Shown here piece after piece: positions 89-28,073 of a DNA stretch of 28,073 nt. Made by a program: the position numbers and the translations under genes. Below the pieces are notes generated by a model. That model ran no database searches. It was not told the DNA's origin and saw nothing but the letters and a program-made list of their open reading frames with translations. Numbering within the stretch: position 1 is the first letter of the stretch; every line of letters starts with the position of its first letter. The stretch is from a virus, in the IMG/VR virus record IMGVR_UViG_3300042544_004043, positions 1 to 28,073 of that record; one strand, written 5' to 3'.

Positions 89-250
89 ATGAAAAAGATA
101 ACTAAAAAAACAATCGCTATGTCACTAGACAAAAATCTATCAGATTTGATAGACAAAAATATTACAAATAAATCAAAATATATCGAATGGTTGATATATC
201 AAGATTTGAAGAAAAAGGAAGTTCAAGGAACAGAAAAAATTATTATTTGA
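89..250 (+). CDS. Small ribbon-helix-helix-like protein (53 aa)
   Basis: This 53-residue protein has an Arc/CopG-like pattern: a short basic first strand (TKKTIAMSLDKNL), then two amphipathic helices (SDLIDKNI and KSKYIEWLIYQDL). The family binds DNA as dimers and usually represses transcription; that role is inferred here. It ends two bases before the ATG of the homing endonuclease at 253, so the two are probably co-transcribed and it may regulate the endonuclease. A TTTTAATATATA block at 72-83 lies just upstream and may be the promoter. The fold is judged from pattern only. Confidence 0.6.
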   Translation: MKKITKKTIAMSLDKNLSDLIDKNITNKSKYIEWLIYQDLKKKEVQGTEKIII

Positions 251-252
251 TT

Positions 253-1455
253 ATGAAATTTGAAATGAATTCTCGTAGCTTTGAATATCTTAATAATTTT
301 GAATTTATAGAGAAAAACGAAATTTTTGTTGATATTGACACTGAAAAAATAAAAATAAAAACAGACTCCTATATAAAAGTTTTCAGTGAATGTTCTTCTT
401 GTAAAGAAAACAAAAAAATAAAATATGCAGCTTATTTGACGAACATTAAAAAGAATGAAAAATTTGTTTGTAAGAGTTGTAATCAGAAAATTGTGAATTC
501 GAAAAGGAAGGGAATTAAATTTTTGAACTCGAAAAGAAAGGGTTATAAAATTATAAACAAAGAATTTAAAGTAGATTTTAAACAAATTGTAAAAGATAAA
601 TTTGGTTTGATTGCACTAAATGATGAATTAGTTAGATATGATGAAAATTTCGAGGCAAATTGCGAAAAACACGGAGTGTTAAAAATAAACTATAAAAATA
701 TTCAAAGAACTGGATGCACAAAGTGTAATCTCGATAATAAACAATCAACTCAACAAAAGAAATTTATTGAGAAATCAACAATAAAACATCTAGACAAATA
801 CTCATATGAAAAAGTAAAATACGTAAACAATAGAACAAAAGTCATAGTAATCTGTAAAAAACATGGTGAATTCAAAATAAGTCCAATGAATCACTTAAAT
901 GGTAACGGATGTGAATCATGTAGCAAATTAGACATCACAGATTTTATAGAAAGAAGTAAATTAGCACACGGTGATAAATATATTTACGATAAGTCAATTT
1001 ATATAAACGATATAACCAAGATAGAAATTATTTGCCCGACACATGGATCCTTTTTACAAAGACCTTCTTCCCACTTTTCTGGAAACGGTTGTCCGTCTTG
1101 TAGATGGTCACTTGGTGAAAAAAAAGTTTCTAGTTTTCTTGAAAAAAATTTAATAAGGTTTGAAACACAGAAAAGATTTCCGGAATGTAAGAATAAATTT
1201 CAATTAAAGTTTGATTTTTACCTGACAGATTTAAACATATTAATCGAATATGACGGAATTCAACACTTCATACCTGTTGATTATTTCGGAGGAGCAGAAG
1301 CTTTCGAATATCAAAAGAAGTTGAGAAAAATAAAGGAGAAATTTTGTGAAGAACAAAAAATAGAATTAGTCAAAATCTCATATTTAGATGATGTAAATGA
1401 AATCTTGACTAATTTACTTTTATCTCTATCCAAAAATACTCATAACAACGGATAA
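253..1455 (+). CDS. Homing endonuclease with zinc-ribbon repeats and PD-(D/E)xK-like nuclease domain
   Basis: The frame is open from 187, but ATG 253 (MKFEMNSRSFEYL) is preferred because it follows the stop of the small RHH gene by two bases. The first third carries CSSC and CKSC pairs. Two or three repeats of about 50 residues follow, of the phage type I-x-K-x-x-H-G-D-K-Y-x-Y ... C-x-x-H-G-x-F ... G-C-x-x-C (DUF723-like), which probably bind DNA. The last 90 residues form a nuclease domain with KFDFYL, LIEYDGIQHF and a following K/E-rich helix, matching a PD-(D/E)xK/Vsr-like active site. Such proteins cut intron-less or intein-less alleles to spread themselves. Its last 30 bases overlap the polymerase C-terminal gene tail-to-tail. 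Confidence 0.8.
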   Translation: MKFEMNSRSFEYLNNFEFIEKNEIFVDIDTEKIKIKTDSYIKVFSECSSCKENKKIKYAAYLTNIKKNEKFVCKSCNQKIVNSKRKGIKFLNSKRKGYKIINKEFKVDFKQIVKDKFGLIALNDELVRYDENFEANCEKHGVLKINYKNIQRTGCTKCNLDNKQSTQQKKFIEKSTIKHLDKYSYEKVKYVNNRTKVIVICKKHGEFKISPMNHLNGNGCESCSKLDITDFIERSKLAHGDKYIYDKSIYINDITKIEIICPTHGSFLQRPSSHFSGNGCPSCRWSLGEKKVSSFLEKNLIRFETQKRFPECKNKFQLKFDFYLTDLNILIEYDGIQHFIPVDYFGGAEAFEYQKKLRKIKEKFCEEQKIELVKISYLDDVNEILTNLLLSLSKNTHNNG

Positions 1456-2649
1456 CCTTTCTGTTATCTTCGGAAGACCCAACGGCTCAATAATTGAATT
1501 TATTGGAGATAAGATACATTTGGAAAATTGGAGGTCATTATCAATTTCCGGGCCGAATTCGTGAGGGAAAGAACCCCTCACATAGGCAAAAATATCACCA
1601 AGTGACTTATCTTTACAGTAGTAATATTTTATCTTTGTTCCAGACTTAATAAATTCATATTTAGACTGCAAATGCTTGTTTTTGTGAAGAAGGTAGTTAA
1701 AATGTCCAGCCGCTTTAACTGCGAAGTGACAACCCGTAACAAACTCCAATCTATCCTTATCATTCAACACCTTCTCCTCATAATTAGAACAGGATGACTG
1801 CATAGAAATATCATCAATCCTATCAGGAACACACAAATCAAACTCCTTCTTCAAATTCTTCACCAATTTCAACAACTCCTTAATGTTAAACGTGTCAGGA
1901 TGCTCAAACAAATATTTAACAATCCCAATAATCTTATCACGAGCAAATAATGGAGTAGAAGACCTAACCAACTCAACACCCTTAGGGAATAAATAAGTCA
2001 ATCTATCATAAGGAATACCATCCTCATAAACTATATGCTGAATATATTTCTTCTTAGCAATGTTAATAATAGACTCAGAAACTCTCTCTAACTCAAAATC
2101 CTGTTTGTTCTCAACACCATAAGATGCAGCCAAATCATCTAAACACTCCTTGAAATAATCAGCAAATCTGAACTTGTCTAGACCATGAATGAAATCTAAT
2201 TCTCTCTTCCAATTGTAAAAGATTTCTCCCTTAAAATCCTTTATAACCTTTTCTAAATTCCAATCTTTAATAAACTCACCATCAATCAATAAAAGTTCTG
2301 ACTTAGAAAGTGCATCCTTAATCTTACTTTCCGTTTCTTCATTTAACTTATCAACTAAAATTGCTGCCTGTAAATTAGAATTCTTAAATTTAGCCTTGAA
2401 CTTAGTTTTTGTTAAGATAGAAAAAGGTTTTTCAACTGAATTAAGATATTCAGAATTGAAGATTTGGTCTTGCCATTTACAAGATTTTATAGCAGGTTCA
2501 AATCCAACAAAAACAGAATTATGAACAAGCATATCATTTGCAATAAATGTATGTGTATCATCATTCATTTCTATATCATAAACCCACTCATCCTCGAATT
2601 CTCCGATTTGCTCACAAGATTCTATATCATCAAAAAAATACTCTTTCAT
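1426..2649 (-). CDS. Family B DNA polymerase C-terminal part preceded by a C-intein
   Basis: Residues 1-44 are the C-terminal half of a split intein, with block F (VYDIEMNDDTHTFIAND) and the terminal His-Asn (MLVHN). Residue 45 is Ser, the +1 nucleophile, followed by VFVGFEP, which continues the catalytic YGDTD motif of a replicative polymerase. The remaining 363 residues are the palm end and thumb: KKKY (199-202) and KGVELVRSSTP (223-233) are standard polB DNA-contact motifs. On its own the protein lacks two of the three polymerase motifs. After trans-splicing to the product of 4155-4899 it would complete the active site. It is preceded by a decayed gene whose final TGA overlaps this ATG. 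T4 gp43 is the functional counterpart. Confidence 0.9.
   Translation of the reverse strand: MKEYFFDDIESCEQIGEFEDEWVYDIEMNDDTHTFIANDMLVHNSVFVGFEPAIKSCKWQDQIFNSEYLNSVEKPFSILTKTKFKAKFKNSNLQAAILVDKLNEETESKIKDALSKSELLLIDGEFIKDWNLEKVIKDFKGEIFYNWKRELDFIHGLDKFRFADYFKECLDDLAASYGVENKQDFELERVSESIINIAKKKYIQHIVYEDGIPYDRLTYLFPKGVELVRSSTPLFARDKIIGIVKYLFEHPDTFNIKELLKLVKNLKKEFDLCVPDRIDDISMQSSCSNYEEKVLNDKDRLEFVTGCHFAVKAAGHFNYLLHKNKHLQSKYEFIKSGTKIKYYYCKDKSLGDIFAYVRGSFPHEFGPEIDNDLQFSKCILSPINSIIEPLGLPKITERLSVVMSIFG
2518..2649 (-). other. C-intein half (44 aa) of split polymerase intein
   Basis: Encodes residues 1-44 of the gene above. It has the block F/G signature ending LVHN and a Ser at +1. It pairs with the N-intein at 4155-4514, giving an intein of about 163 residues with no internal endonuclease domain. 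Confidence 0.85.
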
Positions 2650-2948
2650 AGATTAAAGTTTTTAACAAACATTATACATTCTTTACACGAATTGGTTTTA
2701 ATCGGAATGCGAATATAGTTTTCTTCATTCCAATTCACCAACTTAAAACATTATTTCATGGACAATTTGACACTGAATAGGATAAACAATTTATGGAATT
2801 ACAAACTTATAAAAATCATCATCTAAAAAACATTCTTTAGTTTTCCAATCATCAACTAAGAAGTCACATTTTTAAAAGAAAATGTTTAACCAAATTCTCT
2901 GAGTTGTATAGTCTGATTGAGTAGAGTTCCGTAGGTGAATATTTCCAT
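2646..2948 (-). pseudogene. Decayed gamma-glutamylcyclotransferase (AIG2)-like gene
   Basis: Three fragments in different frames line up in the order expected for a GGCT/AIG2-type protein. The first starts at ATG 2948 with MEIFTYGTLLN, the family's characteristic F-x-Y-G-T-L start, and stops after 20 codons. The second reads CDFLVDDWKTKECF then DDDFYKFVIP, like the W-K-x ... D-G-x-F-Y-P-x-x-x-P strand pair. The third reads NWNEENYIRIPIKTNS, like the C-terminal E-G-x-x-Y-x-R-I-x-V strand, and ends at the TGA overlapping the C-intein ATG. At least two frame changes and several stops separate them. This accounts for most of the 366-base gap between 2649 and 3016. The family call comes from motif recall only. 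Confidence 0.55.
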
Positions 2949-3015
2949 TGTTAAAAAAAATATTATTTTTAATTATTTTGTTTCAGGATTTTTTTCAAAA
3001 TGTATAAATATGAAT

Positions 3016-4131
3016 TTAAAGTTGCTTCAAGATCTTCTTAACTGTCAAATCTAAACCATCTTTCAAATAATCATTTTCCCAAACAATTATTAATTTACTC
3101 AACTTATCTCTCAAATATTCTACTTTAATCTTATCTCTCTTCCAAATAGTCTCAGCCATCATATTACCAGCAAAAGGCATAGGAGTCGAGTTAGATTCAT
3201 AAATGGATGGATTAGCATGCCATTTATCACCATTAAATTCAATACCTATATTCAAATCCTCAATCCAATAATCTAAATAATATTCAAAACTTCTATCTCC
3301 GATTTTTCTTAAAAATGACTTCTCGCCATTTTTGGTAGCATAATAAGTTCCGAACTTAGATAGATGTTTATCAAGTTCAATAAACAATTTCTGTGACATT
3401 TCTGAAAATCCACCTTTGAAAATTCTTTTATTGGAAAACTCATTGTATTTCTGAGAACCGATTTCCTCTCCATATTCCTCAATAAAGTATTCTAATGTAG
3501 TAGTATATCTCTGACGATCACAATAATTTAACCAAATTTCTAATCCCTTTTCCTCACCCCATCTACTAATCAAGTTTGGAAGTGTCACAGAACGACTTTT
3601 ATTATACTCATCAAATTGTTCTCTTGTCCAACCCCATTTATCTCTTTTAAACTCAAATGTGTTAGATATAGACTGCTTTTCACAGTAATTTTTCCACCTC
3701 TCTTTACCCTCAACTTCACCCCATTTCTCAATCAAAGTCTTTTCAGTAATTGAATAGTTTTGATTAATCCACTGAGAAGAAACATCTTCAGGAATTTCAA
3801 ATGCAAATTTCGTAGTTTCATTCATACCATTGAAGACCCTTGATTTATTCTTTGTTGCATAATCAGGAAATTTCTCTGTCAAACACTTCTCACAAATAGT
3901 TAGGTGATAATCTTTATCCAAAACAGTTTTTTTGATGTGATAAGACTTACCAATAGTTTCAAGTTCTTTAGTCTTTTTGGAAATCTTAAAAGAAGAATCA
4001 TAATAATAAATCACATCTTCACAGACTCTACAATGATGTTTTTCTGCAATAAAATTAGAATAAATCTCTCTATATAAATCGAGAGATTTATTCTTGTTAA
4101 ATTTTTCAATGAATTCTTTGTTTATAGTCAT
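3016..4131 (-). CDS. Vsr-like homing endonuclease lying between the split-intein halves
   Basis: This is a 371-residue protein. The N-terminal third has C-x-x-C pairs (CRVC, CEKC) that look like a zinc site. The middle repeats a W-G-E-x-x-G-x-x-x-W/Y-x-x-Y/F-x-x-x-x unit about three times (KWGEVEGKERWKNYCEKQ, RWGEEKGLEIWLNYCDRQ, EYGEEIGSQKYNEFSNKR), which probably contacts DNA. The C-terminal domain has YYLDYWI, IGIEFNGDKWHANP, a W-K-R-D-K-I-K helix and LIIVWENDY, matching the EDxHD/Vsr-like homing nucleases. It is on the same strand as both polymerase pieces, 23 bases after the N-intein gene. This is the arrangement described for fractured genes with split inteins, where a free-standing Vsr-like endonuclease mobilises the interruption. 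The target is presumably the intein-free D-T-D codons of the polymerase. Confidence 0.85.
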   Translation of the reverse strand: MTINKEFIEKFNKNKSLDLYREIYSNFIAEKHHCRVCEDVIYYYDSSFKISKKTKELETIGKSYHIKKTVLDKDYHLTICEKCLTEKFPDYATKNKSRVFNGMNETTKFAFEIPEDVSSQWINQNYSITEKTLIEKWGEVEGKERWKNYCEKQSISNTFEFKRDKWGWTREQFDEYNKSRSVTLPNLISRWGEEKGLEIWLNYCDRQRYTTTLEYFIEEYGEEIGSQKYNEFSNKRIFKGGFSEMSQKLFIELDKHLSKFGTYYATKNGEKSFLRKIGDRSFEYYLDYWIEDLNIGIEFNGDKWHANPSIYESNSTPMPFAGNMMAETIWKRDKIKVEYLRDKLSKLIIVWENDYLKDGLDLTVKKILKQL

Positions 4132-4154
4132 GATTTACGGTGATAGGTTTATCT

Positions 4155-4514
4155 CTATATATTATTTTCCAAACATAAAATTTTGTCAGTTTTTAAAATT
4201 TCCGATGGTTTAACTACCAATTTTTTACCATCACGGAAGACTACCATAGAATGATCACCAGTTACTATGATTTCTTTACCAGATTTGGTCTTCAACTTCC
4301 ACTTTGGTTTAGAAACTTTATGTCTAATAATTCTACGAACATCCGCATAGTAAAGTTGGTCGTTATCCCAATTAAGAACTCGATCATGTGTTAATACGGA
4401 TTCGTGACCGTTAGTGGTTTCACCAGCGGAACCATTCAACATATTGGAATTATAGAATTCTTCTATAGTTTTGATTCCAACACTCGTATGAATTAGTGTG
4501 TCTTTAAAAACGCT
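4155..4514 (-). other. N-intein half (119 aa) of split polymerase intein
   Basis: The intein begins with Ser directly after YGDTD (SVFKDTLIHTSVGIKTIEEF, block A) and has the block B motif VTGDHSMVV with the conserved T-x-x-H. It ends LCLENNI before a stop, where a contiguous intein would go on to its endonuclease or C-terminal part. Thermococcal polymerases also carry inteins starting with Ser at this D-T-D site. Cutting at Ser1 and rejoining at the +1 Ser of the C-half would restore YGDTDSVFVGF. Confidence 0.85.
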
Positions 4515-4899
4515 ATCCGTATCCCCATACACACTAACAGGTTGATTATCAGGTATTTGCACAACATCTGAAATCTTTAACTTATCATGAATCCACTTTT
4601 CAGTGTGCCACATCGTATACCAATATTTCTCATTCTTTTCTGACATTGTTCTTGTCAGATTTCTTCCTTCGGCTGTGATGGTTCCCGCTACATTTTGATT
4701 AAAAAGAATGAAGTAGGGGGTCGCAAATGCACCGTAACTTCCATTTAAAACTAATTTAAGAGCTTATTTACCCCCTCCAATTACTCAGAGGGGGTCATCG
4801 AGCAAGCTGAAGAGCGTTGAAGTATTCCACTTCTTTCTTCAGCTCATTTGCTTTCAATTTTAACTCTTCAATTCTTACTTGAATATCAGATTTGTTCAT
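4155..4899 (-). CDS. Family B DNA polymerase middle part ending in an N-intein; frame interrupted at 4764-4800
   Basis: From ATG 4899 a 34-codon frame encodes a charged helix ending NALQLAR and stops at TGA (4795-4797). In another frame, from GCT 4763, comes ALKLVLNGSYGAFA. This is polymerase motif B (K-x-x-x-N-S/G-x-Y-G). It runs on to the catalytic YGDTD and then the N-intein, stopping at 4155. There is no ATG, GTG or TTG between the break and motif B; the first ATG (4646) comes after it. Joining the first frame at GCT 4801-4803 to GCT 4761-4763 gives QLALKLVLNGSYG, the Q-x-A-L-K-L-x-x-N pattern of family B polymerases. Both pieces therefore look like one protein whose reading needs the 37-nt gap to be skipped. 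The exonuclease and N-terminal domains are not in this window. The start 4899 is the only plausible one after the divergent promoter region. Confidence 0.75.
4764..4800 (-). other. Bypass-like hairpin insert in the polymerase frame
   Basis: On the minus strand the 37 bases lie between two GCT (Ala) codons. They start CGA-TGA, then form a hairpin CCCCCTC / 10-nt loop / GAGGGGG (arms 4788-4794 and 4771-4777), then read TAAATAA. The insert is very GC-rich for this genome and has no U-run, unlike the terminators elsewhere in the window. GGAGG sits about 10 nt before the second GCT. Matching take-off and landing codons, an early stop, a stem-loop and an SD-like sequence before landing are all features of the T4 gene 60 bypass. 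Function is inferred. Confidence 0.55.
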
Positions 4900-4936
4900 A
4901 AAAAAAATTAACTTATTTTAAAAGGGACTTATTGTC

Positions 4937-4950
4937 TTTTAATATATATA
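4937..4950. promoter_or_regulatory. Putative shared promoter motif TTTTAATATATATA
   Basis: Lies between the divergent starts at 4899 (-) and 4971 (+). The same TTTAATATATA core recurs before many genes here: 72-83, 6129-6139, 10889-10899 on the minus strand, 14790-14801 (shorter) and 19207-19226. It may be a phage promoter element. This is based on recurrence only, in an AT-rich genome. Confidence 0.35.
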
Positions 4951-4970
4951 AATAAAAAGAACAATAGTTT

Positions 4971-6128
4971 ATGATTAAAGAAGAAAAAATTATAATCTCT
5001 ATTAATGCTCGAAACATTAGCCATTTCAGAGAACTCGGATACAATCTTTCTTTTAGTAATTTTACTGAAAAAATAAATTTAGAAGTTCCTATCGAACAAG
5101 TTTCTAAGTCATCAAAAGAAAGAATAACCGCTATCTGTGATATTTGTAGCTCTGAAACCAATTTAAGCATATCTAAATACTGGCGTAATTATGAAAGAGG
5201 TGGATATAACTTCTATTCTTGTTTTTCTTGTAAGAATAAAAAGAAAGAAATGACTAATATAGAAAAGTATGGTGTAGCATCATATTCAAATACGGAAGAG
5301 TTCAAAGAAAAATTCGAAAAATCTTGTCTTGAAAAATATGGTGTTAGCAATCCAAATAAATTGAGTTCACATAGAGATAAAATAAAAGAAACCTGTATGA
5401 AAAAATATGGTTATACACATGCTATGTTATCACCAGAGATAATAGAGTCGAATCGTGTTTGGATGTCTTCTGAAGAGTTTAAAACAAAATCTAAAGAAAC
5501 ATTAATGAATAAATATGGTGTTGATTCGTTTTCAAAAACTGATGATTTCAAGAAGATGATTTCAGATAATAAAGATAAAATCGTGGCAAAAATTAAGAAG
5601 ACATTTTTGGAAAAATATGGCGTTGAACACTTTTCACAATCCGAAATTTGGAAGAAGAAATTTATTGAAGGATTAGAACAGATGGAAAAGAAGAAAATTG
5701 AAACTTGTCTTGAAAAATATGGAGTTGATAATGTTTCAAAAGTTCCGGAAATTGTTGAAAAGGGATTGAGCACAAAAATTGAAAGGAATATTATAATAGA
5801 TCCGGAGTTAATTGAGCCTTGGGAAAAATATAAAAGAGAGGTCAGAAAATTCACCAAAAGAAATACAGCTAAACTCTATGAAAATTGGGATGGTGATGAT
5901 TTTTATGATGGAGAATTAATAAAAAAATATTTAGGTTTATCACATGTTCATAGATTTTATCCAACAATAGATCATAAAATTAGTGTATTTTATGGATTTC
6001 AAAATGGGATATCTTCCGAGGAAATAGGTTCTTTAGATAATTTATGTATTACTAAAAGATATTTGAATTCAATTAAAAGAACTTTAATTGATAGCGAGTT
6101 TATTGAGAAATTAAATTTAATGAATTAA
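4971..6128 (+). CDS. HNH-like homing endonuclease with repeated EKYGV modules
   Basis: This is a 385-residue protein. The N-terminus resembles the fragment at 20373-20786 (a start of the type I-x-I-x-x-x-N ... ELGYN, then CDIC and CFSCK zinc pairs). Six or seven modules follow of the form T-x-x-E-K-Y-G-V-x-x-x-S-x-x-x-E-F-K-x-K, about 30 residues each, a tandem DNA-binding array seen in many phage homing enzymes. The C-terminus has YPTIDHKIS ... GFQNGISSEEIGSLDNL ... LNSIK, which fits an HNH core (D-H near the start, then N-L). It diverges from the polymerase fragment starting at 4899, so it sits right at a point where the polymerase is split. No full HNH Cys knuckle is visible. Confidence 0.75.
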   Translation: MIKEEKIIISINARNISHFRELGYNLSFSNFTEKINLEVPIEQVSKSSKERITAICDICSSETNLSISKYWRNYERGGYNFYSCFSCKNKKKEMTNIEKYGVASYSNTEEFKEKFEKSCLEKYGVSNPNKLSSHRDKIKETCMKKYGYTHAMLSPEIIESNRVWMSSEEFKTKSKETLMNKYGVDSFSKTDDFKKMISDNKDKIVAKIKKTFLEKYGVEHFSQSEIWKKKFIEGLEQMEKKKIETCLEKYGVDNVSKVPEIVEKGLSTKIERNIIIDPELIEPWEKYKREVRKFTKRNTAKLYENWDGDDFYDGELIKKYLGLSHVHRFYPTIDHKISVFYGFQNGISSEEIGSLDNLCITKRYLNSIKRTLIDSEFIEKLNLMN

Positions 6129-6164: not shown

Positions 6165-6457
6165 ATGATAAAATCTTTCAGACAATTTTTAACAGACCCA
6201 TTAGAAACAAAGGTTGTTGATGAGTTTGGAAAACCACTTCTAATGTATCATGTAGGTTCCTATACAAGTGGTGAATTCCGGGGTGCTGGTTGGTTTACAT
6301 CTTCAAAAAAAGACGCTACTTATTATGCTAAATTGAACCGAATGTTGGTGTATTGATTGCACAGGATTTAGCTCGAGATGGTGTAATTGACTTACATCAA
6401 GGTAAAATAATAGATGCTGTTATATTTGATAATAAACAAATAATATTAGTGAAATGA
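6165..6457 (+). pseudogene. Broken ADP-ribosyltransferase-like gene with capsid-targeting-like start
   Basis: The first frame (63 codons, stop at 6354-6356) begins MIKSFRQFLTDPLE. It continues with VVDEFGKPLLMYHVGSY and GAGWFTSSKKDATYYAK, the V-V-D-x-x-G-x-P-L-x-x-Y-H ... F-T-x-x-x-x-x-A-x-x-Y-A pattern of ART-fold toxins and phage MuF-type C-terminal domains. A second frame, entered by a shift near 6333-6350, gives VGVLIAQDLARDGVIDLHQG ... VFDNKQIILVK, like the D-G-V-I ... I-F-D-x-x-Q-I end of the same fold. The middle is shorter than usual, so both a deletion and a one-base shift (possibly in the AAATT run) seem to have occurred. The final TGA overlaps the next ATG (ATGA). A sequencing error is possible. 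Confidence 0.55.
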
Positions 6458-14824: not shown

Positions 14825-15157
14825 ATGCAAGAGAAAGAATTAAACTTACCAAAAATGTCACTCGAAGACGATGACTTTGATGATAAATTCAAAGGCCAGA
14901 AAAAACATGTTGATCCCAAATCAAAAACTCCAGTTTTAGACTCTTTTAGTAGAGACTTGACTAAGTTGGCTGAAGAAGGAAAAATAGATCCAATTATTGG
15001 CCGTGAAAAAGAAATCGAAAGAGTTTCACAGATTCTTTCAAGGAAAAAGAAGAGTAACGCTATTTTGATCGGTGAACCGGGATGTGTAGATGGTGATACC
15101 AAAATTAAAGTTAGAAAAATTAGTGATTTAGGAAGTCATAAAATTGTAGTACAATAA
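14825..15157 (+). CDS. ClpB/ClpC-like AAA+ ATPase N-terminal piece, ending inside an intein
   Basis: Residues 36-86 ([48 protein letters not shown]) match the start of the first AAA+ module of ClpB/ClpC, which normally continues V-G-K-T in the Walker A loop. Instead residue 87 is Cys, followed by [19 protein letters not shown], the block A start of an intein. The frame then stops after 24 intein residues. The usual Clp N-domain is absent and replaced by a 35-residue acidic leader. A terminator follows directly, so the piece is a self-contained unit. The rest of the intein and ATPase is not in this window. Either the gene is broken, or it is the N-half of an atypically split intein. Confidence 0.8.
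15083..15157 (+). other. Short N-intein (24 aa) at Walker A of the Clp-like ATPase
   Basis: Starts with Cys directly after GEPG and shows C-V-x-G-D-T-x-I-x-V, the block A consensus. Naturally split inteins with N-pieces of about 25 residues are known, for example AceL-TerL, so the size alone does not mean it is dead. Confidence 0.7.
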
Positions 15158-20372: not shown

Positions 20373-20786
20373 TTATCTACTTTTGTTTTTCAATTTTTTC
20401 TTAATTATTTCATCAGACCTTGAAGGATTATCAACACCCCAATTTTGTAATAAAGTGTTTTTCCATTTATCCTTTATCTGAGCACTCTGATAAGGATATT
20501 CGACTCCAAAATTTTGCTGTAAAGTCTCCTTTCTCTTCTTTTCTGCACATTTCCTACAATAATATTCTCCCCAACGATTACCATATTTAACATAATTCTT
20601 AAACATGACTTCTTTTATTATTTCACATCCATCACACTTACACTGTATCTTTATTTGACTACCATAAGATAAGAGATCAACAGGTATAATTATAGTCTCA
20701 CCACAATATACATCATAACCCAACTCCTCATAATAAGAAAGATTATAATCATTAATTTTAATTTCTATTTCTCTAGTTAGAATCAT
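20373..20786 (-). pseudogene. Truncated homing endonuclease, N-terminal modules only
   Basis: ATG 20786 starts MILTREIEIKIN, and an ELGYD stretch and CDGC/CRKC zinc pairs parallel the N-terminus of the intact HNH-like endonuclease at 4971. Two of the Q-N-W/F-G-V-x-x-P modules follow (QQNFGVEYPYQSAQIKDKWK, LQNWGVDNPSRSDEIIKKK), then a stop. There is no nuclease domain, so it is probably a remnant, though a small regulatory form is possible. Confidence 0.65.
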
Positions 20787-20808
20787 AAATTTTTTCACAT
20801 TTTATTTT

Positions 20809-20958
20809 TCATTTTTTACATAAATAAGCACCATCCGAATATCCATAAGATGTATATAATTTGAATTTCAATTTCTTTTCAATAGAACATTCATCACACC
20901 TAACTTCAATTTCAGCATTACTCCATTTACCGATTCCCTCAATATTTGATAATATCAT
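20809..20958 (-). pseudogene. Homing endonuclease zinc-domain remnant
   Basis: A 49-codon frame from ATG 20958 carries EVRCDECSIEKKLKFKLY and GAYLCKK, which parallels the zinc-ribbon part of the next fragment (IQCKCDGCEIIKEVMFKNY, GEYYCRKC), but stops mid-domain. It starts four bases after the stop of the intact endonuclease at 20963. It looks like the remains of a second inserted endonuclease. Confidence 0.5.
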
Positions 20959-20962
20959 ATGA

Positions 20963-22519
20963 TTACTTTTTAATTTCAAATAGATAAGAACCACAATCAT
21001 GTATTCTTCTCCAACCTAATTCGTGTAATATCTGAACTTCAGTTTTCTTCTTATCATAACCCATTTTTACAAGAATATCTTTTCTCCATTTCCAACGATT
21101 TTCTCTCAATCCTACATCTTTATGAAACCAATAATAGTTCGGTTCAGTCTCCTTTATTTTAGTAAATCCAACTTTTAAATAAGACCTACCATCATTAAAA
21201 GATTTATCACAATAGGATAATAATTTTTCAACTTCATAATTTGAAAGGAAAAAATTAATTAATTTTGATAAACCACCAACCACATTAGTATTTAATTTAT
21301 TGCAAAATCTAAGTAATTCCCATTGTCCTTCAGAAACATTTCTCCACCCAAGATTTCTTCTTAGTTTACCAAAAGTACAAATTGAAACCAATTCGTTGTT
21401 ATAATAAAGACCCAAATTAACCGAAGAAATACAATTACCTTGTATATGATTTTCGTTAAGAAATTTAGTCGTATCATTCTTATTCACAACAGAAATTTTA
21501 CATTTTCTTGCTCCAATATTATTTTTATTTAAGCCTAACTTATTAATTATTCTACTTTTGATAATATCGGTTTTGTTCTTCCAATCATCTTCCCAAATAT
21601 TCAAAATCTTAACACCGTTTTCTTCAAAAAACTTTAATTTATCTTTATGATATGAATTTTCTTTATAAACTTCAGAATGCCACCATAATCCATTACATTC
21701 AACCCCAACATTTAACTCAGGTAAAAAAATATCCAATTCGTATTTTTTATAACCTCTATAGTTATTAACTATTCTACCATTATATACTGTTTGAATCCAT
21801 TCTTGAACCCTTTGTTCGAAATTAGATTGACCAACTGGATTACAAATTAAACAAATATCGTTCTGAAATCTTTTTCTACTATTAAACAAGGTTCTTCTTA
21901 TCTTAAAATCATTAGAACACTTTAAACAATTTAATTCAAACTCAAAATTTGTAAGTCCTAAAAGCTTGAATCCAGATTCTTCCAATCTCTCTAGAACTTT
22001 TCTATTTCTCACTTCTGGTAGAGAATTTCTTAGTCCTATTGATATTTTCTCTTTTATTTGATCACATTGACTGATGTTCTTCACACCCCATTTCTCAATA
22101 TTGAAATTCTGTCTTTTTGTATTAATTTCACTTTTTCTTTCTTCTGAAAATTCGGATTTGGTTTTATTAGCTTTTTCCGTCATTTCCTTTCTCAATTCCG
22201 GATCCTTATTCGATTTTTCGAAACCAGATAATCTTTTTGATTTAACTTCAGGATTTTGTGCAGTCATTGTAGCCGCACATTTTTTAGAACAATATTTAGT
22301 ATAACCTTTGTAGAATTTGAGAAAATTAGTTTTATTCTCTTTACAATACTGACACTTTGGCTTTTCACTTAAATTATTTTGATATAAGTAAATTCTTTCA
22401 GAAAGTGAAATATTTTCTTCTTTAACAAAAACAAAAAGATTATCATAATATTCCTTATGATTTTCTCTTAGAAATTTATCCGAAACACCATTAGTAGTTT
22501 TAAAAAACAAATCGTCCAT
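20963..22519 (-). CDS. Vsr-type homing endonuclease with GNAT-like C-terminal region
   Basis: ATG 22519 (MDDLFFKTTNGVSDKFL) is chosen because the frame further upstream is AT-rich, hydrophobic and unlike the family. The product has 518 residues. There is an N-terminal zinc region (KCQYCKENK ... YCSKKC), then a module FNIEKWGVKNISQCDQIKEK, and a second Cys pair set (CLKC ... CLIC). The nuclease domain reads ELDIFLPELNVGVECNGLWW with HSE following, then KDKLKFFEENGVKILNIWED: the E/D-x-H-D Vsr-like active site. The C-terminal 180 residues (LNENHIQGNCISSVNLGLYY ... WELLRFCNKL) resemble a GNAT-like domain and end GWRRIHDCGSYLFEI. It lies between the head-completion and protease genes. Confidence 0.8.
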   Translation of the reverse strand: MDDLFFKTTNGVSDKFLRENHKEYYDNLFVFVKEENISLSERIYLYQNNLSEKPKCQYCKENKTNFLKFYKGYTKYCSKKCAATMTAQNPEVKSKRLSGFEKSNKDPELRKEMTEKANKTKSEFSEERKSEINTKRQNFNIEKWGVKNISQCDQIKEKISIGLRNSLPEVRNRKVLERLEESGFKLLGLTNFEFELNCLKCSNDFKIRRTLFNSRKRFQNDICLICNPVGQSNFEQRVQEWIQTVYNGRIVNNYRGYKKYELDIFLPELNVGVECNGLWWHSEVYKENSYHKDKLKFFEENGVKILNIWEDDWKNKTDIIKSRIINKLGLNKNNIGARKCKISVVNKNDTTKFLNENHIQGNCISSVNLGLYYNNELVSICTFGKLRRNLGWRNVSEGQWELLRFCNKLNTNVVGGLSKLINFFLSNYEVEKLLSYCDKSFNDGRSYLKVGFTKIKETEPNYYWFHKDVGLRENRWKWRKDILVKMGYDKKKTEVQILHELGWRRIHDCGSYLFEIKK

Positions 22520-22626
22520 AATATAATATATATTTATATTGTAAATAAAGTTTCTATAAAAAATCCACCTTGAAAAAAATTGTTTTTTTAGCGATATATA
22601 TACAATTATAAAAATAACTATTTTAA

Positions 22627-24798
22627 ATGAAACCAATTTTAATCGTTGAAAACAACACAAATCCTTTGAAGGAGAACGTTAAGATTTCTGGTGGTAAAAA
22701 AGAATATGTTTTAGGTGGTGTTTTCACTGAGTTCGGAATTAAAAATCGGAACGAGCGTATATACACAGCTGACAAATTTATTCCTTGTTTAAAGGAATTA
22801 AATGAACGTATCCAAACAATGGGTGTAGTTTATGGTGAGTTCGATCATCCCGATGTGTTCGACACCTCATTATCAAGAGCTTCCCACATTATCAGAAAAG
22901 CATTTTACGTTAAAGAGGGTAACCGAGTTGATGGTGAAATTAAACTTCTTAATACTTACTGGGGAAAAGAAGCTCAATCACTAGTGAATGATGGTTGTCC
23001 TGTTTTTGTTTCTTCAAGAGCAGCTGGTGTCACTGAATCTGACGGTACTGTTACACTTAAAAAACTTTTCACATACGATATTGTTGCTGATCCTGGATTC
23101 GCTTCTGCAAGAATGCAGTCAATTAATGAATCTGTTGGATATTCTAACAAAACTAACTTTAGGATATATGAAATGTCCGACGAGTCAAAAATTAACGAAT
23201 TATTTAACATGAACAAAAATGATTACGTTACTAAGAAGCAATTGGCTGACTATTCCAAGTATTTGGTGAATGAAATCGCAACTACTAAACAGGCAGCACA
23301 AACAGCTATCAAAAAAGGTAACCTCACTCCAAGAAAATTGGAACAACTCCTTGAGTACTACGAAGAACTCAACAAAACCAACTCTCAAATGGTTAAATAT
23401 TTAGACTATTTAGCTGAGAAAGTACAAGTTGTTGTTAACGAAAACAAAAGCTTGAAATCTACTACAAAAAAACTTATTTCTCACAACGATTACTTAGCTG
23501 AAAATCTTGAGAAAGCAGTTAACTACACTGAGTATGTAGCTGAAAATTTGGACAAGAATATCACTTATTCTGAATATCTCGCTGAGAACTTAGATAAGAA
23601 CATTTCTTACTCTGAATATCTTGCTGAAAACTTAGATAAAAACATCGCTTATTCTGAGTATATCGCTGAAACTGTTGATAAGAACATTTCTTATTCTGAA
23701 TACATCGCTGAAAACTTAGACAAGAATATCGCTTATTCTGAGTATATCGCTGAAAACTTAGACAAGAATATCGCTTACTCTGAATACATCGCTGAAAATT
23801 TAGATAAGAATATTGCTTACTCTGAATATATCGCTGAAAATTTAGATAAGAACATTGCTTATTCTGAATATATCGCTGAGCACTTAGACAGTTCAATTGC
23901 ATACTCTGAGTATCTTGCTGAACATGTTGAAGGTAATATCGCTTATGCTGAATACATCGCTGAACATCTTGATGATAACATCGCTTATTCTGAATATCTT
24001 GCAGAAAATCTTGACAAAACAGTTTCTTATGCTGGTATGATCACAGAAAAATTGAATGGTGGTAGAATCAACGAAAACTTCGCTGATCAGTTCCCAACTT
24101 TAGATGCTGCTGGTTTTGAAGAAGTTGCTGAAGAAGAAAAACATAACACTTTTGCTCAAGAAAAAGAAGAAGATGAATACTATATGATGTCAAATCCTCA
24201 TAGTGCTCAATCTTATAATGAAATTGAACCTAATGAAGAAGAAGAAAATAATACATGGGAAATGGGAGAAACAGAAATGAAAACCGATTCTCAATTATCT
24301 GAACAAATTAATATTTTGATACAAGAAGCTAGAAAACGTAAAGTTTCTGAAACCAATGATTTGCACTTCTTGAAGTTTTTGAACAAATCTCAAGTTGATA
24401 GTTTTTACAACTTGACTAAAGCTGAACAAGAACAAGTTAAACTTTATCTAAACGAAAAAAGTTACTTCTCATCTGCTGAAGTTTTAAGACTTATCCAAGA
24501 ATCATTATCAAACAAAGGAGAATCTTTAGAAGAAAAATTAATTAGACTTATGCCTGAAAACGTAAAGCCAATTTGGTCTAAATTAAACGAATCTAACAAG
24601 AGATCAATCCTTTCTCAAGCTAGACTTTATCCGGAACTAACAAACGAAGCAAAAATTGAACACTTCTGGTTAACAAGACAGTTGAAAAAAAATGAATCTA
24701 CTACAAAAAATTTAGTTGATTCGAATCCAATCATTCAAGAGGAAAAAATTTCTGGAAATGAAATGAAATTGATTCTTGAAAGATTTAAAAATCTATAA
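22627..24798 (+). CDS. Prohead protease fused to a repeat scaffold (T4 gp21-gp22 like)
   Basis: Residues 1-170 are a serine protease of the T4 gp21 kind: GVFTEFGIKNRNERIY, the His motif VVYGEFDHPDV (H74), the Ser motif FVSSRAAG (S129/S130) and DIVADPGF. T4 makes the scaffold as separate gp22; here a 550-residue helical region follows in the same frame. It contains 13 repeats of 14 residues (type YSEYIAENLDKNIA), then an acidic stretch (from about 495) and a second helical region to the end. It would form the prohead core around which the capsid protein assembles and then cut it away. The I/L-A-E before N in each repeat matches the I/L-x-E cleavage preference of T4 gp21. It lies 95 bases before the capsid gene. 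Confidence 0.85.
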   Translation: MKPILIVENNTNPLKENVKISGGKKEYVLGGVFTEFGIKNRNERIYTADKFIPCLKELNERIQTMGVVYGEFDHPDVFDTSLSRASHIIRKAFYVKEGNRVDGEIKLLNTYWGKEAQSLVNDGCPVFVSSRAAGVTESDGTVTLKKLFTYDIVADPGFASARMQSINESVGYSNKTNFRIYEMSDESKINELFNMNKNDYVTKKQLADYSKYLVNEIATTKQAAQTAIKKGNLTPRKLEQLLEYYEELNKTNSQMVKYLDYLAEKVQVVVNENKSLKSTTKKLISHNDYLAENLEKAVNYTEYVAENLDKNITYSEYLAENLDKNISYSEYLAENLDKNIAYSEYIAETVDKNISYSEYIAENLDKNIAYSEYIAENLDKNIAYSEYIAENLDKNIAYSEYIAENLDKNIAYSEYIAEHLDSSIAYSEYLAEHVEGNIAYAEYIAEHLDDNIAYSEYLAENLDKTVSYAGMITEKLNGGRINENFADQFPTLDAAGFEEVAEEEKHNTFAQEKEEDEYYMMSNPHSAQSYNEIEPNEEEENNTWEMGETEMKTDSQLSEQINILIQEARKRKVSETNDLHFLKFLNKSQVDSFYNLTKAEQEQVKLYLNEKSYFSSAEVLRLIQESLSNKGESLEEKLIRLMPENVKPIWSKLNESNKRSILSQARLYPELTNEAKIEHFWLTRQLKKNESTTKNLVDSNPIIQEEKISGNEMKLILERFKNL
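23479..24024 (+). repeat. 13 tandem 42-bp repeats coding for 14-residue scaffold units
   Basis: Units start every 42 bases at 23479, 23521, 23563 and so on to 23983. Positions 1 and 13 are more diverged; the middle units are nearly identical in protein but differ at many third codon positions. This means that selection acts on the peptide rather than recent DNA slippage being the only cause. The partial unit at 24025 begins SYAGMITEKLN. Confidence 0.9.
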
Positions 24799-26758: not shown

Positions 26759-28073
26759 ATGAGTAAGTTAGAAAAAATTGATGAAATTTTACAGGATAAA
26801 GGTAATAGATTAAGAGAGTCATATTTCAATAAAAATTATCCTGATATATTAGAAGATATAAAATCTTTCTGTATTAACTTAACAGACTTACCTTTCAACC
26901 AAAAACTTTGGCATTGGGTCAATGATTATCAAAATAATTTTACCTGTAAGTGTGGAAATACAACAACTTTCAATAAAAATTGGAAAGACGGATATAGGAA
27001 ATATTGTTCGGCTAAATGTTCAGCAACCGATCTATCAACTAAAGAAAAAAGAAAAAATACAAACTTAGAAAAGTGGGGAGTTGATAATGTAGCAAAAGCA
27101 GAACAAGTCAAAAATAAACAAACAGAAACCAATCTACAAAGATATGGAACGAAATCTTCTGCACAAAATGAAGAAGTAAAGAAAAAATATAATGAAACTA
27201 TACAGAAAAAATATGGTGTAGATAATTATTTCGAATCAGATGATTTTAAAGAAAAAGCAAAAGACACACTACTAAAAAAATACGGTAAGGAACATTTCAC
27301 TCAAACTGAAGAATATATTCAACTTGTAAAGCAACATAATTTAGAAAAGTATAATACAGAATGGTTTACTCAGACAGAAGAATATAAGGAAAAGTCAAAG
27401 AAAACCAATTTAGAAAACTGGGGAGTTGGAAGTTATTTACAAACACCCGAACTTAGAAATATACTTAAAGATAATAAATTAGAAATATTTGAAAAAATTA
27501 GAAAAACATCTTTAGAAAAATGGGGTGTTGATTCTCACAGCAAAACTGAAGATTTCCGAAATAAAATAAAAGAAAAATGGAAAAGTGGAGTCTATTCAGA
27601 TATTATTTCCAAATCAATAGAGACTAACAAACTTTTATATGGATTTGATTGGTTTACACAGACAGAAGAATATAGAAAATATCTAAAATCCGATGAGTTT
27701 AGAGATAAAATTAAATATTCTTTGATCGACAAATCAAGTGAATATTATAAAAATATAGGATATGATTTATTAGATACTGAAGATGGAATAGTCACACTAA
27801 AAGGTGGTTGTGGTCACACATTTTCTATCACAATTTATAACGCCAGTAGAAGAAATTTAAATGGATTAATTCTATGTACAGAATGTAATCCTATCAATTT
27901 GAGTCAATCTGGCAGTGAAATAAATCTTGCAAATTGGTTAAAAGAGTATATAAATTTAGAGACAAAAAATAGAAGTCAAATACCACCACTTGAATTAGAT
28001 ATTTATATTCCTGATAAAAAAGTTGCCTTAGAATATAATGTTTTATATTTGCATTCTGAAATTTATAAATACA
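26759..28073 (+). CDS. Vsr-type homing endonuclease, cut by window end
   Basis: ATG 26759 (MSKLEKIDEILQDKGNRL) opens a frame that runs to the last base. The first part has CKCG and YCSAKCS zinc pairs. There are then about eight modules of the type T-N-L-E-K-W-G-V-D-N-x-x-x-x-x-x-x-K, interleaved with GFDWFTQTEEY-like units, a middle zinc pair (GGCGHTF ... CTEC), and the start of a nuclease domain (LELDIYIPDKKVALEYN, then HSE). It matches the enzyme at 20963 in its nuclease motif and the one at 4971 in its repeats. It directly follows the capsid terminator. The C-terminus lies outside the window. Confidence 0.8.
   Translation, partial: MSKLEKIDEILQDKGNRLRESYFNKNYPDILEDIKSFCINLTDLPFNQKLWHWVNDYQNNFTCKCGNTTTFNKNWKDGYRKYCSAKCSATDLSTKEKRKNTNLEKWGVDNVAKAEQVKNKQTETNLQRYGTKSSAQNEEVKKKYNETIQKKYGVDNYFESDDFKEKAKDTLLKKYGKEHFTQTEEYIQLVKQHNLEKYNTEWFTQTEEYKEKSKKTNLENWGVGSYLQTPELRNILKDNKLEIFEKIRKTSLEKWGVDSHSKTEDFRNKIKEKWKSGVYSDIISKSIETNKLLYGFDWFTQTEEYRKYLKSDEFRDKIKYSLIDKSSEYYKNIGYDLLDTEDGIVTLKGGCGHTFSITIYNASRRNLNGLILCTECNPINLSQSGSEINLANWLKEYINLETKNRSQIPPLELDIYIPDKKVALEYNVLYLHSEIYKY

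Follow-up and report, generated by a model that had tools for sequence, protein, structure and literature searches.

The gene for gp43B, the C-terminal portion of a DNA polymerase of family B, is interrupted by a 40-nt insert in the viral DNA analyzed here (the window, positions 1 to 28,073 of IMG/VR record IMGVR_UViG_3300042544_004043), and we consider it probable, at roughly 0.78, that this insert is a translational bypass element similar to that of T4 gene 60, which moves with a homing endonuclease and protects the endonuclease's target. Inserts of this kind occupy six positions of the same gene in related phages, have matched flanking codons at five of them, contain a hairpin, are associated with the endonuclease gene, and are inherited discordantly between near-identical phages.

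gp43B lies on the minus strand and is broken twice in the window (Table 1). The first-pass annotation had described a polymerase fragment starting at 4899 with a bypass-like gap after about 33 codons, and the two reading frames and the hairpin at 4770-4795 confirmed this. Past its 33 codons, the upstream frame runs through CGA into a TGA stop, and the polymerase B motif ALKLVLNGSYGAFATPYFILFN restarts at 4763 in a frame different from that of the 4899 ORF, reading on after the second GCT as LKLVLNGSYGAFATPYFILFN. The bypass-like stretch is where that annotation had placed it, with the boundaries moved from 4764-4800 to 4761-4800 by the take-off and landing codons. The insert length, 40 nt, is not a multiple of 3. 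The arms of the hairpin are ACCCCCTCTGA and TTGGAGGGGGT. Only 3 of 200 dinucleotide shuffles of an 81-nt region were equally stable, and none of 300 letter shuffles of the insert alone folded as well (z -5.3). A C4..G4 hairpin occurs a single time in the 28-kb window, in the insert, against a chance expectation of 0.22. The exact hairpin of the window had no second copy in the viral contigs searched, and an Rfam search at the insert site gave no match, i.e., no group I intron core there.

Table 1. Coordinates of the polymerase pieces, the insert, and the endonuclease genes in the window
Feature	Position	Strand	Remarks
Split-intein C-half (about 44 aa) and polymerase C-terminal part gp43B2	1426..2649	-	
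Free-standing endonuclease gene between the intein halves	3016..4131	-	Related to VSR endonuclease annotations in PTm1 and Aes123; outside the putative bypass cassette
Resumed polymerase frame	4155..4760	-	Motif B (LKLVLNGSYGAFATP..) to YGDTD, then split-intein N-half; DNA_pol_B and Intein_splicing matches
Putative bypass insert	4761..4800	-	40 nt: 37-nt gap plus landing codon; missing from 20 related alleles
Proposed landing codon GCT	4761..4763	-	Directly before the resumed frame
Putative take-off hairpin	4770..4795	-	11-bp stem, 4-nt loop; starts 5 nt after the take-off codon
In-frame stop TGA	4795..4797	-	Second codon after take-off
Proposed take-off codon GCT (Ala 33)	4801..4803	-	Synonymous pairing in 23/23 alleles outside the Tyr class
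gp43B 5' open frame	4801..4899	-	ATG at 4899 opens MNKSDIQVRIEELKLKANELKKEVEYFNALQLA; 33 codons, ending at the take-off codon
HNH-like homing endonuclease gene	4971..6128	+	385 aa; DUF7487 repeats and C-terminal PTIDHK..NLCITKR..NS.K module; divergent from gp43B

We then determined how widespread such inserts are. A search with a motif B fragment returned loci that all read like the window, and a wider search gave 73 loci, in which a script joining two frames across one gap identified 27 distinct insert alleles, the window included. Later additions (L103, L104, L143, and L151, then L218, L220, and L245) brought the total to 34, that is, the window and 33 further alleles from uncultured phages, and 20 insert-free alleles were collected beside them. 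Every insert-bearing relative is a metagenomic assembly. Of the 20 insert-free alleles, 19 have an unbroken gp43B ORF (about 475 aa in most, 641 aa in L025), and L049, absent from the list of such ORFs, reads through motif B without a gap. The ATG of the insert-free alleles lies 39 to 48 codons upstream of GAFATP, roughly where it does in the window. Among these alleles are the huge-phage records LR756502 and LR745206 (L016 and L017), with an uninterrupted polymerase protein, and L033, whose polymerase is nearly identical to those of the insert-bearing L036 and L051. A scan of 29 related records for C5..G5 hairpins returned almost exclusively the polymerase insert; two extra hairpins that were inspected lay at gene ends or outside genes and were terminator-like, and the others came from the insert-free 597-kb record of L032. 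A scan of genome contigs for the insert found none. The sequence relatives of the window are phages of Tenacibaculum and Prevotella, and our guess is that its host may belong to the Bacteroidota.

The inserts measure 36 to 48 nt, and their lengths fall into all three classes modulo 3 (remainders 0, 1, and 2 in 9, 14, and 8 of the 31 alleles tabulated), with an in-frame stop in every one of the nine inserts of a length divisible by 3. They follow LA, LAL, LKLV, LNG, LNGS, or LNGSY, all within about 9 codons at motif B. At five of these positions the two flanking codons are synonymous in 23 of 23 alleles (GCT..GCT/GCA, CTT or CTG..CTA, GTT..GTT/GTA, GGT..GGT, and TCT..TCA), whereas 6% of the remaining trinucleotides within these gaps match. 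The exception is the Tyr position, LNGSY, where none of eight alleles (L022, L036, L038, L047, L051, L056, L064, and L067) has a Tyr-cognate landing codon, TAT or TAC being faced by AAC, TAA, AGC, CAA, or GAC; the rule of matched codons thus does not extend to every insert. The take-off Leu codon of the LAL class is CTN in 12 of 12 cases, compared with 17 of 34 elsewhere.

The hairpin stem comprises 7 to 14 bp, typically CCCCC..GGGGG, begins 3 to 6 nt past the last coding codon in all alleles, and mostly ends 4 to 8 nt before the landing codon. Its bases vary while the partners are kept, with pairs exchanged at most stem positions, and the median folding z is -6. The pair counts were taken from stem-anchored positions, a MAFFT alignment of the inserts having misplaced the 3' arms owing to the variable loops, and they lean towards pairing in that the stems were picked for it. 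The stop is usually the second codon after take-off; it is the first only in L024, L040, L048, L071, and L104, and L063 and L067 have no early stop. The downstream polymerase is strongly conserved among the alleles. The upstream peptide is just as well conserved in phages without the insert, which leaves no sign of a nascent-peptide signal dedicated to bypassing.

From these features we infer that ribosomes slide across the insert. They would read gp43B codons 1 to 33 and halt at GCT as the hairpin moves into the A site; peptidyl-tRNA(Ala) would then detach, and the ribosome would slide about 40 nt and re-pair with the second GCT. Decoding would restart at CTT-AAA and yield an uninterrupted motif B, NALQLA-LKLVLNGSYGAF, the predicted joined peptide across the gap being NALQLALKLVLNGSYG. 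A fixed frameshift or stop readthrough was rejected, given the three length classes and the stops in all inserts divisible by 3, and re-initiation was rejected since no start codon common to the alleles precedes motif B.

The gene at 4971-6128, read by the first-pass annotation as an HNH-like endonuclease on the strand opposite the polymerase fragment, is a real endonuclease gene: its product matches Pfam DUF7487 (E 6e-28) and a PHROG homing endonuclease family (E 4e-20), and its C-terminal module, YPTIDHK.S...G....NLCITKR.NS.K, is mostly invariant in 14 homologues. The HNH assignment is made by motif (invariant D-H, N, and N-x-x-K) and by the PHROG names, with none of the HNH Pfam models matching. 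Directly upstream of gp43B, in divergent orientation, 16 of 30 insert alleles carry a homologue, as do none of the 20 empty ones (Fisher p 3e-5). The 30 are those obtained by the polymerase search; four alleles found through the endonuclease, all of which also carry inserts, were left out as biased. Bypass-free relatives with the same endonuclease at this spot, which the first-pass annotation had named as evidence against its proposal, did not turn up among the 20 insert-free alleles (L016, L017, L033, and 17 more). ORF-238 of PTm1, beside an insert-free 43B, was considered as a counterexample and rejected: it is without the HNH-like module, and the common part is the repeat region only. Thirteen of the 30 insert alleles are without the endonuclease, which can be read as loss, and one more (L040) retains a remnant. 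On a polymerase tree from which the insert region was left out, the distribution of the insert requires 15 changes, 12 of them forced by well-supported branches, and in independent pairs of lineages differing in the endonuclease, the insert differs in the same direction in about seven and in the opposite direction in none (median p 0.016). The endonuclease tree has one clade accompanied by LA, LAL, and LKLV inserts and another by LNG, LNGS, and LNGSY inserts plus one LAL. The association of clade with 5'-side or 3'-side position (p 4e-4, with L047, an LNGSY allele in neither clade, assigned to the second side) would follow from recognition of a separate part of motif B by either clade; the exception is L063, in which a clade II endonuclease accompanies a 5'-side insert.

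Near-identical phages were then compared over the 126-nt tract from the gp43B start to GAF. L033 (empty, without endonuclease), L036 (insert and endonuclease), and L051 (insert only) are 91 to 96% identical downstream and only 73 to 80% identical in the tract. L067 and L068 encode an identical downstream polymerase protein at 96 to 99% DNA identity and differ in insert position and endonuclease status, with 73% identity in the tract. Endonuclease, 5' tract, and insert are thus discordant as one block between otherwise near-identical phages, and such tract-limited divergence is the pattern left by co-conversion during homing. Pairs of insert-free phages that were compared showed no local identity dip in the tract. 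The cassette would accordingly have two halves, the insert and the divergent endonuclease gene. The target of the endonuclease would be the highly conserved motif B where, in insert-free relatives, it is uninterrupted. Repair templated by a cassette-bearing genome would copy endonuclease, 5' part of gp43B, and insert jointly, and the insert, by destroying the target site, would protect its carrier; cutting at motif B and protection are deduced, as is the sliding, from the patterns described above.

It is unlikely that bypassing is real and the endonuclease a mere hitch-hiking neighbor, with an insert that does not protect against it and no cassette. The 13 insert alleles lacking the gene would fit such a neighbor, as would the presence of the endonuclease family at other genomic places without such hairpins (a strict stem scan near these paralogues gave no comparable hairpin). 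Against it stand the absence of the gene from all 20 insert-free alleles, the count of about 7 to 0 in independent pairs, the tracking of insert position by endonuclease clade, and the discordance of endonuclease, 5' tract, and insert as a block.

Somewhat less probable again is a micro-intron, cut from the RNA around the hairpin and followed by re-ligation, so that ribosomes never meet the insert. Removal from RNA is frame independent and could take place wherever the insert lies, and it would account for the lack of matched codons in the LNGSY class; moreover, a group I intron at the same motif in Aeromonas phage Aes517 means that splicing does occur here in relatives. The region has no Rfam match, however, the insert is only about 40 nt long, and splicing does not require the synonymous codons that flank it in every allele outside LNGSY. 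Excision of hairpins like these in bacteria or phages is not known to us. We regard it as very improbable that the gene is a pseudogene or that its two parts are truly made as separate polypeptides. The polymerase already works in pieces (43A/43B and the split intein), and the ORF of 33 to 34 codons ends as the hairpin begins, but no common start codon lies between the gap and motif B, and LNGSY alleles would be cut inside the motif (NGSY|GAF); the downstream protein is moreover under strong purifying selection, as in the identical L067 and L068 proteins. That errors of assembly or sequencing created the insert, a GC-rich hairpin amid AT-rich genomes, is hardly credible. All insert-bearing relatives are indeed metagenomic, and the near-identical L218 and L220/L221 differ by one G in a G-run within the gap, a difference that would break any decoded gap and may be a homopolymer error. 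Yet contigs assembled from different samples have inserts in common (L010/L011/L012, L072-L075, L050/L053, and L055/L059), and six ordered positions, a conserved geometry, and near-exclusive occurrence at the polymerase are not what such an artefact would leave.

The likeness to T4 39-mobA-60 suggested by the first-pass annotation, an independent occurrence in another gene of a bypass-bearing split gene next to a homing endonuclease, is supported by all the comparative tests applied. One part of the parallel does not hold, since in T4 mobA itself splits the gene. Here the split into 43A and 43B occurs also in insert-free, endonuclease-free phages, with 43A tens of kilobases away. gp43A was located far from gp43B in 12 of 29 records, insert-free ones among them, and its neighborhood, inspected in L101 and L102, showed no apparent endonuclease gene. 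Since the split is present in phages with neither insert nor endonuclease, it is, on this distribution, older than and separate from the putative cassette.

The second break of gp43B is a split intein after YGDTD (YGDTD|S..; 1426-4646, minus strand). Annotations of Tenacibaculum phage PTm1 and Aeromonas phage Aes123 show the same layout of intein and VSR gene, Aes123 having the order 43A/43B1/VSR/43B2 and no hairpin. Among relatives, the intein is independent of the bypass insert, being absent from L033, L036, and most insert alleles. The insert-free, continuous 641-aa gp43B of L025 (-126..1799 relative to GAFATP) probably contains a contiguous (unsplit) intein. In Aes517 (L259), a group I intron (2721-2966; RF00028 match) sits in 43B directly after NSLYGAF; mobile inserts have thus targeted motif B repeatedly. 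According to one review, a 43B intron may rely on an endonuclease that is free-standing (PMC2993671), and another describes endonucleases directed at codons critical for function (PMC2988022).

In T4 gene 60, a 50-nt gap after codon 46 is bypassed with the help of matched codons and a hairpin in the A site, and sliding processivity was constant for gaps up to 56 nt (PMC5009743, PMC11194080). All the gaps described here are shorter than that. Counterparts to gene 60 have long been expected and hardly found (PMC5009743). Shared with T4 are a non-coding insert of about 40 to 50 nt that lies early in the C-terminal piece of a split replication gene (it follows codon 46 in gene 60 and codons 33 to 42 in gp43B alleles), matched take-off and landing codons at five of the six positions, a hairpin after take-off, an adjoining free-standing HNH-type endonuclease, and the proposed protection (PMC5009743, PMC2988022, PMC11194080). 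In contrast to T4, the gene is a DNA polymerase, the endonuclease is divergent and did not make the split, the inserts occupy six positions with many alleles rather than one, the stop usually lies one codon later instead of directly after take-off, one class is without matched codons, and no dedicated nascent-peptide signal is evident. The byp elements of Magnusiomyces capitatus mitochondria are likewise many short bypassed inserts, some with imperfectly matched codons (PMC5009743), but they number 81 in 12 genes of a yeast mitochondrion, whereas the gp43B inserts lie at one hotspot of one phage gene, are centered on a hairpin, and are linked to an endonuclease. The split gp43 of Aeromonas T4-like phages has the same polymerase architecture: its split intein is likewise accompanied by a VSR gene, and its motif B likewise bears a mobile insert (PMC2988022, PMC2993671); there, however, the insert is a self-splicing group I intron, unlike our 40-nt hairpin of no known splicing class, and 43A, distant in the phages studied here, is adjacent. 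The intein halves of the window with their VSR-like gene share the layout of fractured genes with split inteins and free-standing endonucleases, the difference being that here the intein entered the polymerase gene in a second invasion, distinct from that of the insert. We found no published description of hairpin inserts in gp43B in the literature searched, which excluded most subscription papers.

With some hesitation, we lean towards a broader view, in which bypass hairpins of about 40 nt form a distinct mobile class, "translational introns," that occupies six codon positions of one gene, is carried by an endonuclease and protects against it, and in which ribosome hopping, rendering the hairpin harmless, would depend chiefly on a stem, in most cases together with a second cognate codon, and not on a nascent peptide dedicated to it. 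To our knowledge, T4 gene 60 is the sole well-established phage case of efficient bypassing. With 34 natural alleles at six sites, 20 insert-free controls, and co-varying take-off and landing codons, bypassing would become open to comparison. The alleles support the view that bypass elements originate as tolerated scars protecting against homing endonucleases, and the inserts would be a third kind of mobile insert at conserved polymerase motifs, beside introns and inteins. Gene callers will report insert-bearing polymerases as broken.

Other genes of the window also appear fractured. At 14825-15157 (plus strand), the start of a ClpA-like ATPase (GEPG) passes into an intein-like C-VDGDTKI.. and ends at 110 aa; the rest does not adjoin it, and this is probably a second fractured gene. 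A small ORF at 6165-6452 (plus strand), MIKSFRQFLTDPLETK.., appears to read on in a different frame past about 6335 as EPNVGVLIAQDLARDGVIDLHQGK, as if by a small indel, with no hairpin seen at the break. Further endonuclease-like genes or fragments (phrog_559 HNH, DUF7487, MTES_1575) lie at 187-1455 and 26759-28073 on the plus strand and at 20373-21000 and 20963-22660 on the minus strand, and the load of mobile genes around the structural genes of the window is unusually dense.
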